A DNA stretch of 20,520 nt from a virus. The notes beneath the pieces were generated by a model that was given only the letters and a program-made list of their open reading frames with translations, ran no database searches and was not told the origin of the DNA. Shown in pieces: positions 12,548 to 15,392 of the stretch; the stretch's first letter is position 1; each line of letters opens with the position of its first letter. The stretch is taken from the IMG/VR virus record IMGVR_UViG_3300043435_000165, positions 1 through 20,520 of that record. One strand, 5' to 3'. Position numbers and translations under genes: made by a program.

Positions 12548-12833
12548 GCGAATATTTAATGTCATGCTCATATAAAAACATGAGACAACACATTGCATGA
12601 GCCAAGTGATGTATGCCAGATTCGGGGTCAAGTTGCTCACCTTGTTTCCATGCCCAAAGATGCCGTTGTAATGCATCAAAATACCTGCGTTTAGATTCAG
12701 GTACCTTTTGCCAATTATCACGTTCATACTTTTGAGCACCAAAGGTGAGAACTTTAACCGTCTCCTCTAGCGCAAGAGGTGGCAACAAACCATATTCTAG
12801 TTTGCCACCATCAAACTTACGACCAGTAGCCAT
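12531..12833 (-). CDS. DUF5664-type dATP/dGTP diphosphohydrolase-like protein
   Basis: The 100-residue protein matches the short domain labelled DUF5664 or dATP/dGTP diphosphohydrolase N-terminal domain: GRKFDGGKLEYGLLPPLALE (4-23), FGAQKYERDNWQKVP (31-45), RRYFDALQRHLWAWKQGEQL (49-68), DPESGIHHLAHAMCCLMFL (69-87). Histidine and acidic residues in the last two blocks probably hold the metal. Related phage proteins adjust purine dNTP pools, in some phages in connection with modified bases; whether that applies here is open. Its start shares one base with the glycosyltransferase stop (TAATG), indicating coupled translation. Confidence 0.85.
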   Translation of the reverse strand: MATGRKFDGGKLEYGLLPPLALEETVKVLTFGAQKYERDNWQKVPESKRRYFDALQRHLWAWKQGEQLDPESGIHHLAHAMCCLMFLYEHDIKYSLDKDK

Positions 12834-13648
12834 TATAACCTACCAGTTAACTCTGCTACTTTTGGCATATTGCCTGAGAAGGCATATGTACCAATGTGTT
12901 GTGTCTTCATCCATGGGCACAAGAAGATATCTCCACCCATCTTACGCCACATCTGGCAGAACATGTAATCTTCACTTAGATAACGTTCTGAACCACCGCC
13001 TGTAATGGACTCTTTGGTGTCAATTACAGTATCAAAGTAAGCATGAATGTAACGTGAACCATCAAAGTGCGCCTGACCAACGTGGTCTGGTTTGTAACGA
13101 ATGTTTGGATACTCGACAGCCATCTTATCAAAGACTTCACGTTTAACCAACATAAAACCAGTACCAATTTCCAATACTTCAAGTGGTTCGGTAACTGAGA
13201 ATTGTGATGTGCCTTTAACAACGTTGAAGACATATTCACCAACCAATGTTTCCAATTCACGTGGTTCCAAATCTGGATGATTACGTGCGGCATGTGCAAT
13301 GTTATTCCAATTGATTGATTTCTTGGGGTAAGGACCACCAATAACATCTTTGTCTAATGCCAATAATGCTACAACATCTTGTGGGTTGTAATGAATATCG
13401 GAATCCAAAAACAATAAGTGTGTGCAATCTGAGCGCAAGAATTCATCTACGAGGTAGTTTCTTGCACGTGTAATAAGTGATTCATTAAATAGGAAAGAGA
13501 ACTTAACATCAACACCATAACGTGACATAATACCTTGAAGGTCTAAACAAGACTTCAGGTATAACCCGTGTGCCATGCCACCATACATTGGTGTAGCCAC
13601 AAAGAGTTTATTCTTTTTCAAATCTTCAACTTTGACTTGTATTTCCAT
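12833..13648 (-). CDS. GT-A fold glycosyltransferase
   Basis: The 271-residue protein has a Rossmann-like N-terminus (LFVATPMYGG, 15-24), the DxD-type sugar-nucleotide motif THLLFLDSDIHYNP with DSD at 82-84, an LEIGTGFMLVKREVF segment (159-173) that is common before the acceptor site, and SEDYMFC (225-231) with an ED pair likely acting as general base, plus H251. There is no membrane segment. Substrate and target are unknown: DNA bases, virion proteins or cell surface are all possible. It lies just behind a strong terminator (13659-13702) with no sigma-70 promoter of its own, so its expression depends on read-through or on a phage-specific promoter. Confidence 0.87.
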   Translation of the reverse strand: MEIQVKVEDLKKNKLFVATPMYGGMAHGLYLKSCLDLQGIMSRYGVDVKFSFLFNESLITRARNYLVDEFLRSDCTHLLFLDSDIHYNPQDVVALLALDKDVIGGPYPKKSINWNNIAHAARNHPDLEPRELETLVGEYVFNVVKGTSQFSVTEPLEVLEIGTGFMLVKREVFDKMAVEYPNIRYKPDHVGQAHFDGSRYIHAYFDTVIDTKESITGGGSERYLSEDYMFCQMWRKMGGDIFLCPWMKTQHIGTYAFSGNMPKVAELTGRL

Positions 13649-13658
13649 AATTTATTCC

Positions 13659-13702
13659 ATAAAAAAAAGAGGAGGGATATACTTATATATCCTACTCCTC
13701 TT
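13659..13702 (-). terminator. Strong intrinsic terminator after the winged-helix gene
   Basis: On the minus strand AAGAGGAG (13702-13695) pairs with CTCCTCTT (13674-13667), with an inner 7-bp stem GGATATA / TATATCC and a 4-base loop, followed by a run of eight T. It ends transcripts from the promoter at 14073-14101. Confidence 0.88.
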
Positions 13703-13719: not shown

Positions 13720-13992
13720 TTAGGCGAATGTTGACATTCCTGCAGTGCGAAGTGCTTGCAAGCCAGCAGCAACTTGGCGCTTAGTTGGTGTGCCTAAACG
13801 ATAGAAAGAAACTTTCTCGCCATCAGACTTGATACGGGTGTTCAAGTAAATAGCATGACCTTCTTCACGCAATTCATTAATGCGAGCAGCAACGTTCTGA
13901 ACGTTGAAACGAGCACGAGCTTGATTAACGGTCAACGTGTTGTAACCATCAGATTTGCTCAAGTAGGACAAGATTTTTGCTTTAGCGGACAT
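13720..13992 (-). CDS. Small winged-helix DNA-binding protein (HTH_39-like)
   Basis: I place the start at ATG 13992, which has GGAG eight bases upstream; the 12 extra residues of the longer frame fall in the leader. The 90-residue protein reads AKILSYLSKSDGYNTLTVNQ (4-23), then ARARFNVQNVAARINELREE (25-44), the pattern of the short HTH domain where the second helix reads RxxVxxxAxRIxELR. A beta wing follows (KVSFYRL, 60-66). It is likely a small regulator or nucleoid-type DNA-binding protein. It forms a single-gene transcription unit between its own promoter and terminator, with an RNA pseudoknot possible in the leader, as if its level is tightly controlled. Confidence 0.87.
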   Translation of the reverse strand: MSAKAKILSYLSKSDGYNTLTVNQARARFNVQNVAARINELREEGHAIYLNTRIKSDGEKVSFYRLGTPTKRQVAAGLQALRTAGMSTFA

Positions 13993-14021
13993 AATAACTC
14001 CAAAATTTAAATAATAAAAAC

Positions 14022-14067
14022 GAACCACACTTCAAATAATTCTGAGAGGTGGTTCATTCTCTCAGAA
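14022..14067 (-). promoter_or_regulatory. Predicted H-type RNA pseudoknot in the winged-helix gene leader
   Basis: On the minus strand stem 1 is TTCTGAGAG (14067-14059) with CTCTCAGAA (14048-14040), nine perfect pairs. The loop holds GAACCAC (14055-14049), which is exactly complementary to GTGGTTC (14028-14022) downstream. Loop 1 is AAT, stems abut without a spacer, and loop 3 is 11 bases, all standard H-type geometry. Transcription from the promoter just upstream should start near 14066, so the pseudoknot would form the very 5' end of the mRNA. It ends about 30 bases before the start codon. Confidence 0.65.
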
Positions 14068-14072
14068 ATTCT

Positions 14073-14101
14073 ATTATAACAAAACTATTAACACTTGTCA
14101 A
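14073..14101 (-). promoter_or_regulatory. Sigma-70 promoter of the winged-helix gene
   Basis: TTGACA (14101-14096), 17 bases, TATAAT (14078-14073) on the minus strand, a full consensus match. It lies directly after the stop of the MoxR-like gene. Confidence 0.87.
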
Positions 14102-14115
14102 CAGTTTTTAGGCAA

Positions 14116-15300
14116 TTAGAATGGTACTTCATCACTGTTTGCCGAGACTGCTTCTACGTTCACTTGTTGGTTACTGGTATTGGCACCAGCATCTAACTTG
14201 GCGTACAGGTCAATAAACGATAACTTGGTATCGGTATCAAAACGGTTCAAGCAGAGAGCAATTGCTTTCATGCGGTCGCCATGCACAGAGTACGTTTTGC
14301 AAATGTGAACCAGACGGCGGGTAGAAATAATTTCATCAACACCACCTTCAGCAAACGTTTTACGGATTACATCAGCCCATGTTACCAACTTTTCGGCAAA
14401 CTCATCATCAGAACGGTTCAATGAAGCCAATTCTTTCTTAATGATTTTCTTCTCAATGTTGATTGGAGGAAACTCTTGCTCATATGTATTCAAGAAACGT
14501 TCGAGGAAAGCCTCATTCAAAACATTGGTGAACATGTAACGACCATCTTCTGAGCCTTTACCTTTTGTATTGGCAGTAGCCACAATTGTAAAACCTTCAG
14601 CAGGTGCAACCATTTCATTCTTCTTTTTAAGCAAGAAAGGTCTGCCTTCTAAAACACGTTGCAGGCAGGACAGATTCTGAGCACCATAATCAATTTCATC
14701 AATACACAGCACAGCGCCTTGTCGAGCCGCAACGGTAACTGGACCATCACGCCATTCCATTTGACCATTAATCAAAACATAATTGCCAAGCAAATCACTT
14801 TCATCGGTATCAGGTGTCATTGATACGCAAACAAATTTACGTTTTGCTTTAGCGCAAGCTTGTTCAACTGACATTGTTTTGCCGTTGCCAGATTGACCAG
14901 TAATAAAAATTGGGAAAAACAATTTGCTTTGTACAACGGAAAGCAAATCATCAAAGTTACCAAAGGGAACATAATTGCTATATGTTTTTGGAACTAGATT
15001 TTCAGTTTCAAGGTCAGTAACAATATTTGCAATACGATTGCCACTGGAAACAACAGGTTCAGATTTTTTCATTTGCAAAACTTGTGCAGCTGCCATGTTA
15101 ACTACACTGGCATTATTAGAGGGAACTTTATATAGACCACGACCTGCACGGAAGTCCATATCTTTCAAATACCACTGGGGTAACTTAATATCATTTTCTA
15201 CACAAAGGTCTTTAATGTCCTGTAGTGTAAAAATACTTTTGCCTGTAGCAGAGGCAATAGAAATAAACTTCTCACGTTTGTCAGTTTGAATACCACGCAT
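14116..15300 (-). CDS. cobS: MoxR/CobS-like AAA+ ATPase
   Basis: I choose ATG 15300, preceded by GGAG at nine bases, over the two Met codons at 15318 and 15315. The 394-residue protein has an N-terminal helical region, Walker A GQSGNGKT (135-142), Walker B with CIDEID (199-204), the sensor 1 ATAN (241-244) and an ERF element (267-269), a layout shared by CobS and MoxR ATPases. These act with VWA-domain partners as metal chelatase motors or remodelling machines, and the VWA gene lies immediately upstream. Phage copies are widely labelled CobS, but no cobalt chelatase large subunit is here, so a cobalamin role is unproven. The C-terminus NSDEVPF resembles the SSB tail. Confidence 0.88.
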   Translation of the reverse strand: MRGIQTDKREKFISIASATGKSIFTLQDIKDLCVENDIKLPQWYLKDMDFRAGRGLYKVPSNNASVVNMAAAQVLQMKKSEPVVSSGNRIANIVTDLETENLVPKTYSNYVPFGNFDDLLSVVQSKLFFPIFITGQSGNGKTMSVEQACAKAKRKFVCVSMTPDTDESDLLGNYVLINGQMEWRDGPVTVAARQGAVLCIDEIDYGAQNLSCLQRVLEGRPFLLKKKNEMVAPAEGFTIVATANTKGKGSEDGRYMFTNVLNEAFLERFLNTYEQEFPPINIEKKIIKKELASLNRSDDEFAEKLVTWADVIRKTFAEGGVDEIISTRRLVHICKTYSVHGDRMKAIALCLNRFDTDTKLSFIDLYAKLDAGANTSNQQVNVEAVSANSDEVPF

Positions 15301-15334
15301 TACGAATAACTCCATCAATCAATTCAATATACCA

Positions 15335-15362: not shown

Positions 15363-15392
15363 TAGTACTGTTGCATAAAAACAACAGTACTA
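15363..15392. repeat. 11-bp perfect inverted repeat abutting the MoxR promoter
   Basis: TAGTACTGTTG (15363-15373) and CAACAGTACTA (15382-15392) flank an 8-base loop. It lies between the VWA gene stop and the -35 of the next promoter. No T-tract follows on the minus strand, so an operator or RNA-processing hairpin is as plausible as a terminator. Confidence 0.75.

Follow-up and report, generated by a model that had tools for sequence, protein, structure and literature searches.

A conserved RNA pseudoknot predicted to head the mRNA of a small winged-helix protein in uncultured phages

In E. coli, 5' stem-loops of the ompA and papA type stabilise the mRNAs that carry them. The type III antitoxin RNAs (ToxI) are small H-type pseudoknots, and phages can carry mimics of these. 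In T4 gene 32, a pseudoknot lies 5' of an A+U-rich region in which the ribosome-binding site is located, and this operator has diverged in sequence between T4 and RB69 while its structure was kept (PMC535899, PMC3014915). A pseudoknot in the translational operator of ribosomal protein S15 (rpsO) likewise serves autogenous control (PMC3014915). The locus described here lies on the minus strand of a 20,520-nucleotide stretch of viral DNA, which was analysed as a whole and is called the window. The initial annotation had likened its leader to that of T4 gene 32, and a pseudoknot, an A+U-rich linker and a ribosome-binding site were indeed found in the order that these sources give for gene 32.

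The source of the window is probably an uncultured T4-like phage, because its DNA polymerase shows 50.7–52.2% identity to its counterparts in the 12 records listed, which comprise marine viruses and phages that we label T4-like cyanophages. From position 14067 to 14022 on the minus strand, the sequence fits an H-type pseudoknot with a first stem (S1) of 9 bp, a second stem (S2) of 7 bp and loops of 3, 0 and 11 nt. In the 5' to 3' direction, the elements are the 5' strand of S1 (TTCTGAGAG, 14059..14067), loop L1 (AAT, 3 nt, 14056..14058), the 5' strand of S2 (GAACCAC, 14049..14055), the 3' strand of S1 (CTCTCAGAA, 14040..14048), loop L3 (TTATTTGAAGT, 11 nt, 14029..14039) and the 3' strand of S2 (GTGGTTC, 14022..14028). 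The loops were read from the sequence, and the stem strands from the sequence and from covariation. L2 has 0 nt, and an eighth S2 pair (U-G) is possible. This leader obtained a pseudoknot parser score of 43.1, while 1360 dinucleotide shuffles of 68 leaders, scored by the same parser, had a 95th percentile of 26.7 and a maximum of 34.6. The folding energy of the pseudoknot was estimated from stacking sums plus the 9.6 kcal/mol pseudoknot penalty, with the coaxial bonus omitted. By this estimate the pseudoknot of the window (about -20.5 kcal/mol) and its best nested hairpin (-20.3 kcal/mol) are nearly isoenergetic. The pseudoknot was favoured over the best nested fold in 63/63 parsed leaders by a median of 4.1 kcal/mol, and in the window leader by 0.2 only. 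Because the nested hairpin is so close in energy, our conviction rests on the comparative evidence given below.

The promoter on the same strand matches the sigma-70-type consensus at 12/12 positions (TTGACA, 17-nt spacer, TATAAT). Its -35 box TTGACA (14096..14101) was read in the sequence and detected by the promoter scan. The -10 box TATAAT, with TG one base upstream, was located by the scan at 14073..14078, and relatives have matches at the same place. The promoter ends at 14073 and S1 begins 5 nt further on. Since the promoter-like site directly precedes S1, transcription probably starts at the first base of S1 (14067) or within 1–2 nt of it. Downstream of the pseudoknot, we read in the sequence an A+U-rich linker of 20 nt (14002..14021) and a Shine-Dalgarno sequence (GGAG, 13998..14001), with the ATG at 13992. 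The gene (13720..13992) is closed off by a terminator-like hairpin (AAGAGGAG...CTCCTCTT, then a U-run; 13661..13702, -17.1 kcal/mol), which was also read in the sequence and is absent from the output of the consensus scan of the window. The initial annotation had described this pseudoknot geometry, placed a promoter directly before the structure with transcription from its first base, and assigned the small winged-helix gene to a unit of its own; the geometry proved exact, the promoter and the terminator-like hairpin were both present, and the start is probably at or near the predicted base.

The gene encodes a protein of 90 amino acids, identified by profile matches to Pfam HTH_39 and phrog_4973 and by a structure model. 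The HTH_39 profile score was 24.8 bits against a Pfam cut-off of 21.3, and 41 of 45 aligned relatives matched the profile at E<=0.01; phrog_4973 is a family without an assigned function. The protein is basic (pI ~10.3), and its model (pLDDT 85.9) shows the order H-H-H-E-E-H of a winged-helix fold. Foldseek searches with the model gave generic winged-helix matches and methyltransferase chains, none below E 0.001, and the best match of the protein among solved structures, at E 0.08, was not credible. The flanking genes are a cobS-like AAA gene (14116-15318) and a glycosyltransferase-like gene (12833-13648), the latter with a weak Anp1 match.

Homologous leaders were collected from IMG/VR. A protein query gave 37 loci, an alignment query gave 80 of at least 585 relatives, and two further queries gave the best 80 of 97 loci and 33 of 33 loci, with overlap of loci between queries. 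In a first set, 143 loci had a match, 141 of them a usable start, and 4 were too short, leaving 68 unique leaders of 105 nt. The parser found the pseudoknot in 64/68. Two leaders of this set belong to distant database phages, of which L058 had a chance-level score and L059 none, and L075, L112 and L128 were missed through an S1 defect. The statistics on 62 leaders given below omit L058 and the mis-parsed L131. A larger set of 239 loci contained 113 unique leaders after exclusion of L058 and L059. The parser accepted 109 of these, a tolerant version added L112 and L128, and L075 and L259 were missed; four of the 109 (L131, L299, L312 and L316) had been parsed in the wrong register. In the homologous register, both stems are perfect in 105/113 leaders by the parser and in L316 by eye. 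The remaining 7/113 hold both stems with one mismatch or bulge: one S2 mismatch in L131, L299 and L312 (by eye), a single S1 defect in L112 and L128, and a single S1 bulge in L075 and L259 (by eye). Both stems are thus present in 113/113 unique leaders if one defect is allowed, while their sequences vary. About 5% of shuffles pass the acceptance threshold of 27, and therefore covariation, not the parse count, is the proof. L316 is divergent, with S1 CGGAAG/CTTCCG, S2 GTCGC/GCGAC (by eye) and an unusually long L3 of ~19 nt. A search for relatives in bacterial genomes gave 29 pattern matches, of which 0 were confirmed.

Covariation was evaluated in two MAFFT alignments that had not been fitted to the structure. 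Alignment A2 contained 61 sequences (55 distinct), i.e., the 68 leaders minus four unparsed rows, L058, L131 and L037; A3 contained 24 rows picked from 39 leaders with a 9-nt S1 loop. In A2, 84.1% of the cells were paired, compared with 72.9% after shuffling. S2 was paired in 91.7% of its cells and S1 in 77.5%, the lower value arising, we think, because variable loop lengths shift the S1 5' strand. Cells changed on both sides numbered 130 versus 51 in shuffles, and the covariation was 0.482 versus 0.273, with 0/500 shuffles as high and slid versions at 0.183 or less. In A3, 93.5% of the cells were paired, with a covariation of 0.585 versus 0.264 for shuffles. Pairs were altered on both sides in 12/15 cases in A2 and in 12/16 in A3. 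For two of the five measures, the excess over the shuffles was not clear. Further pair types numbered 31 versus 31.5 in A2 (343/500 shuffles as high) and 28 versus 26.0 in A3 (94/500), and 32/500 and 13/500 shuffles, respectively, had as many pairs with both sides altered. The cell counts are not independent events, because the rows are related and were chosen among leaders already parsed as pseudoknots. The fold is kept by compensatory change in both stems; homologues lacking such changes, or lacking the second stem, which the initial annotation had named as the outcomes that would speak against it, did not occur.

The pair types also distinguish the strands. G·U pairs count in RNA only, and the antisense strand would show A·C in such cells. 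The core pairs of A3 comprised 291 Watson-Crick cells, 20 G·U, 0 A·C and 1 other, and the S2 cells of A2 comprised 306 Watson-Crick, 22 G·U, 1 A·C and 1 other. Since G·U is common and A·C almost never occurs, selection appears to act on the sense RNA and not on a DNA palindrome or an antisense RNA. Taken together, the alignments indicate that the leader of the winged-helix gene almost certainly contains a conserved RNA pseudoknot.

The anatomy of the leader was compared across the relatives. When the best promoter match was sought 3–13 nt before S1, at least 10/12 positions matched in 52/63 leaders, against 1.4% of 1260 dinucleotide shuffles, and the distance from the -10 box to S1 within this range was 4–12 nt (median 7). 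In the 62 leaders, L1 has 1–5 nt, L2 is empty in 39 and otherwise mostly C, and L3 has 10–16 nt (5 to 19 in the larger set). Close to the junction, the 5' strand of S1 has a strong purine bias. None of the loop positions is invariant; the most conserved, an A three bases before S2 in L3, is found in 50/62. The linker to the Shine-Dalgarno sequence measures 6–20 nt (median about 10) and is 96% A+T in the 51/62 leaders with a recognised Shine-Dalgarno sequence; its weak structure was judged by base composition alone. A shape that stays constant while its sequence drifts is easier to reconcile with a mechanical role, or with recognition of the fold itself, than with a ligand pocket. At gathering thresholds the window has no match in Rfam, and ten weak matches to the leader had E values of 0.8 or more, far below the gathering scores of their families. 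An upstream open reading frame starting near L1 was considered and rejected, as an ATG occurs there in only 11/62 leaders.

The region upstream of the leader also contains repeats. In the window, a hairpin search found an inverted repeat (AAAACTGTTGAC / GTTAATAGTTTT, 14081..14108, minus strand) around the -35 box, upstream of the transcript. The best upstream hairpin, with a stem of at least 7 bp (G-U allowed), overlaps the -35 box of this promoter in 45/63 leaders versus 15% of shuffles, and one with a stem of at least 10 does so in 32/63 versus 2%. Some of these hairpins have a TTGACT loop and T-rich DNA behind, and the overlapping repeat is seen, e.g., in L030, L022 and L129. Possibly the element terminates the cobS-like gene upstream and has the next promoter embedded in it. 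A second tight hairpin-promoter junction was observed where a strong hairpin (15363-15392) abuts the 12/12 promoter of the cobS-like gene (15362-15335, minus strand). In L021 (1522-2892) and L033 (256-1710), large open reading frames ending in an HNH-like motif (by inspection) lie directly upstream of the promoter and leader, and recall the homing endonuclease gene adjoining T4 gene 32.

The pseudoknot geometry was searched for on both strands of the window and of three related records of 162–172 kb (G001, G007 and G008), with one composition shuffle per chunk. The winged-helix leader was the top match in 3 of the 4 records (the window, G001 and G008), with scores of 41.8–43.1, and no shuffle reached 37. 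The homologous leader of G007 was missed because its S1 has a bulge; the best match of that record, at 67416 on the minus strand (35.75), is within the shuffle range and is followed by AAGGAG and ATG. At a score of at least 33, 29 real places (one listed twice) were obtained versus 8 in shuffles. Four other real places, all in G001 and G008, scored above every shuffle (37.05–39.05): G008 114445 (minus, 39.05), G008 156216 (plus, 38.3), which is just behind the winged-helix gene, G001 15030 (plus, 37.2), which overlaps a promoter-like site at 15045, and G001 140201 (plus, 37.05). The geometry alone is therefore not unique. By their sequence, none of the four has the layout of a promoter before and a ribosome-binding site after the fold, so that no second copy with this layout was found in the scanned records. 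Among promoter-like sites of at least 11/12 in the four records, only the one at this leader (in the window, G001 and G008) precedes a first-50-nt fold below -13 kcal/mol; the values after this promoter are -15.9 to -18.9 kcal/mol and that of the next site is -12.8, the G007 copy falling below the promoter cut.

Genes for gp32 are present in 5/8 long records. Four of the five gp32 leaders (L155, L156, L158 and L159, with L157 left out) contain no such pseudoknot, with best parser scores of 22.1–26.95. Repeats such as CCGTTTATACTCCGTTTATAC stand before the Shine-Dalgarno sequence in L155 and L156, TTTATACAA occurs twice in L158, and L159 has one TTTATAC; these are candidate gp32 operators. No phage-encoded S21 was found in the 8 pseudoknot-bearing records, which are possibly fragments.

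Marine relatives were examined as a contrast (73 loci, of which 41 were analysed, giving 26 unique leaders). In the HTVC008M-like group, the winged-helix gene directly follows an S21-like open reading frame, annotated as S21 in HTVC008M and recognised by eye in the others. The S21 leader of Pelagibacter phage HTVC008M (L059, 1480-1670) has several inverted repeats and looks structured, and the winged-helix gene of this phage may start at a later ATG than annotated. Parser scores of 30–32, between the 95th percentile and the maximum of the shuffles, were obtained for 3/26 leaders (L194, L237 and L238). L237 and L238 have a pseudoknot-like fold just before the Shine-Dalgarno sequence, possibly an independent pseudoknot at the same place; their S1 sequences are very different and the second stem TGGCA/TGCCA is shared. 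Twelve marine leaders picked by eye fold into a simple hairpin, mostly of 8–9 bp, before the winged-helix gene, with uncertain start codons. The hairpin (in L178-L205, upstream of the winged-helix start codon) is of the TTTC...GAAA type, and alignment of 11 of the 12 gave no consensus fold. These comparisons suggest that leader structure may be tied to the winged-helix gene, also where other genes precede it on the transcript, and not only to the mRNA 5' end. If real, the marine hairpins lean weakly to gene-specific regulation over pure 5'-end protection.

From these results, we infer that the leader very probably acts in cis and post-transcriptionally on the winged-helix gene in a gene-specific manner. 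A pseudoknot at the 5' end of the mRNA, followed by the A+U-rich linker and the ribosome-binding site, would constitute the cis-acting RNA element. Our leading reading, a tentative one by analogy, is a translational operator like that of T4 gene 32, with autogenous repression by the winged-helix protein. The basic protein would first fill its normal, probably DNA, sites, and the excess would go to the pseudoknot, recognise its shape rather than its sequence, and block ribosome loading on the adjoining linker and Shine-Dalgarno sequence. When the repressor is absent, the same 5'-terminal fold would leave the start site open and protect the 5' end against decay. Only the shape could be recognised, because the stem sequences change while the middle helix of the protein stays largely conserved, and the absence of an invariant loop base fits this. 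That a protein of a DNA-binding fold is in fact a shape-specific RNA-pseudoknot repressor of its own mRNA, independent of the sequence of the pseudoknot, is in our estimate less likely than not.

Autogenous repression has its strongest competitor in a protein-free shield, which we consider somewhat unlikely as the explanation. If transcription starts at the first base pair, the 5' end would be tied up in the fold and decay that depends on a 5' end would meet little single-stranded RNA, so that the mRNA would be long-lived with no regulator involved. The promoter match directly before S1 in most leaders, the short distance from the pseudoknot to the Shine-Dalgarno sequence (median about 10 nt), which places the fold close to a bound ribosome, and the loops without conserved bases all suit this explanation. 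For such a function, however, a simple hairpin should do, yet S2 is present in every one of the 113 leaders (three with one mismatch), and the other strong promoter-like sites of these records do not have comparably folded 5' ends. An operator bound by its repressor and a protein-free shield can coexist.

A different trans factor of the phage or the host, such as gp32, a RegA-like repressor or a host RNA-binding protein, might bind the pseudoknot and time the expression of the gene. The occurrence of gp32 genes in the long records and the linker, A+U-rich like the gp32 operator and containing UUAAA in the window, are compatible with this proposal, but the four gp32 leaders lack this pseudoknot and the scanned phage records have no second copy with the promoter and ribosome-binding-site layout. 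We regard it as improbable.

More remote is an element acting on transcription, either S2 and a U-rich tract as an attenuator, or a nascent 5' structure modifying RNA polymerase. The put RNAs exemplify the latter, causing antitermination through RNA structure acting on RNA polymerase, and the pseudoknot would emerge from the polymerase ahead of all other RNA. S2 is followed by GTTTTTATT in the window, and at least 4 T start within 2 nt of S2 in 26/62 leaders, but a run of at least 5 T within 1 nt of S2 occurs in just 8/62. The U-run behind S2 is thus not conserved, which argues against a terminator, and we rejected an intrinsic terminator or attenuator on this ground; the competing terminator form of S2 that the initial annotation had allowed for was not borne out. 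S2 alone would also close a loop of 20 nt (-8.2 kcal/mol), and antitermination is not obviously needed, because promoter-like sites of at least 11/12 are present elsewhere in the window.

There is only a slight chance that the interlocked inverted repeats are a DNA operator for the winged-helix protein. The protein fold is of the usual DNA-binding type and the repeats are just downstream of a promoter, but on the sense strand Watson-Crick pairs give way to G-U and hardly ever to A-C, the L3 spacing varies over 10–16 nt in 62 leaders, and the arm sequences drift. A small-molecule riboswitch of the preQ1 or SAM-II pseudoknot type is scarcely credible in spite of the compact H-type fold near the Shine-Dalgarno sequence, since the lack of an invariant unpaired base, with A in only 50/62 leaders at the best L3 position, argues against a ligand pocket, and Rfam gave only the weak matches mentioned above.

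If autogenous repression by the winged-helix protein is correct, gene 32 would be joined by a second viral case of autoregulation through a pseudoknot, in at least 113 distinct leaders of uncultured phages. Searches by title and abstract opening, with the subscription literature mostly uncovered, found no published description of this leader, a result that does not establish its absence from print. With this conserved fold, whose covariation is clear, phage mRNA leaders gain a structured RNA that had not been catalogued; the fold points to an RNA switch or shield acting on the winged-helix gene. It also marks this little protein, so far unstudied, as important enough in these phages for a leader structure of its own. 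The many natural compensatory variants make the generality of the gene 32-type strategy testable.

Among the known systems, a type III antitoxin RNA was rejected. The leader is a small H-type pseudoknot RNA like ToxI, but it is a single match at this place without tandem copies, its sequence drifts freely, no Rfam family matches at gathering thresholds, and its neighbours are the cobS-like and glycosyltransferase-like genes. Like the stabilisers of the ompA and papA type, it would place a stable structure at the extreme 5' end (given the predicted start) of a short leader; unlike them, it is a pseudoknot with a persistent S2 instead of a simple hairpin, and precedes one gene only in the scanned phage records. 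In rpsO, the pseudoknot and the ribosome-binding site overlap and the ribosome is trapped, whereas the pseudoknot of the winged-helix leader ends 6–20 nt before the Shine-Dalgarno sequence. In both cases, a pseudoknot stands in the leader of a gene for a small protein that binds nucleic acid or, as here, is predicted to do so from its DNA-binding-type fold. The closest resemblance is to the gene 32 operator of T4, T2 and RB69, in which a leader pseudoknot at the functional mRNA 5' end is followed by an unstructured A+U-rich stretch and the Shine-Dalgarno sequence (PMC535899, PMC3014915). Here, this layout arises from a promoter placed directly before the pseudoknot, so that the 5' end would be promoter-made, whereas that of T4 gene 32 is made by RNase E cleavage. 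The gene encodes a winged-helix HTH_39 protein and not a single-stranded DNA-binding protein, and the four gp32 leaders of related phages, unlike that of T4 gene 32, are without the pseudoknot. Phage leaders with a pseudoknot ahead of a ribosome-binding site are a known kind of element; what is new here is the gene, the predicted origin of the 5' end at a promoter, and how widely the element occurs.
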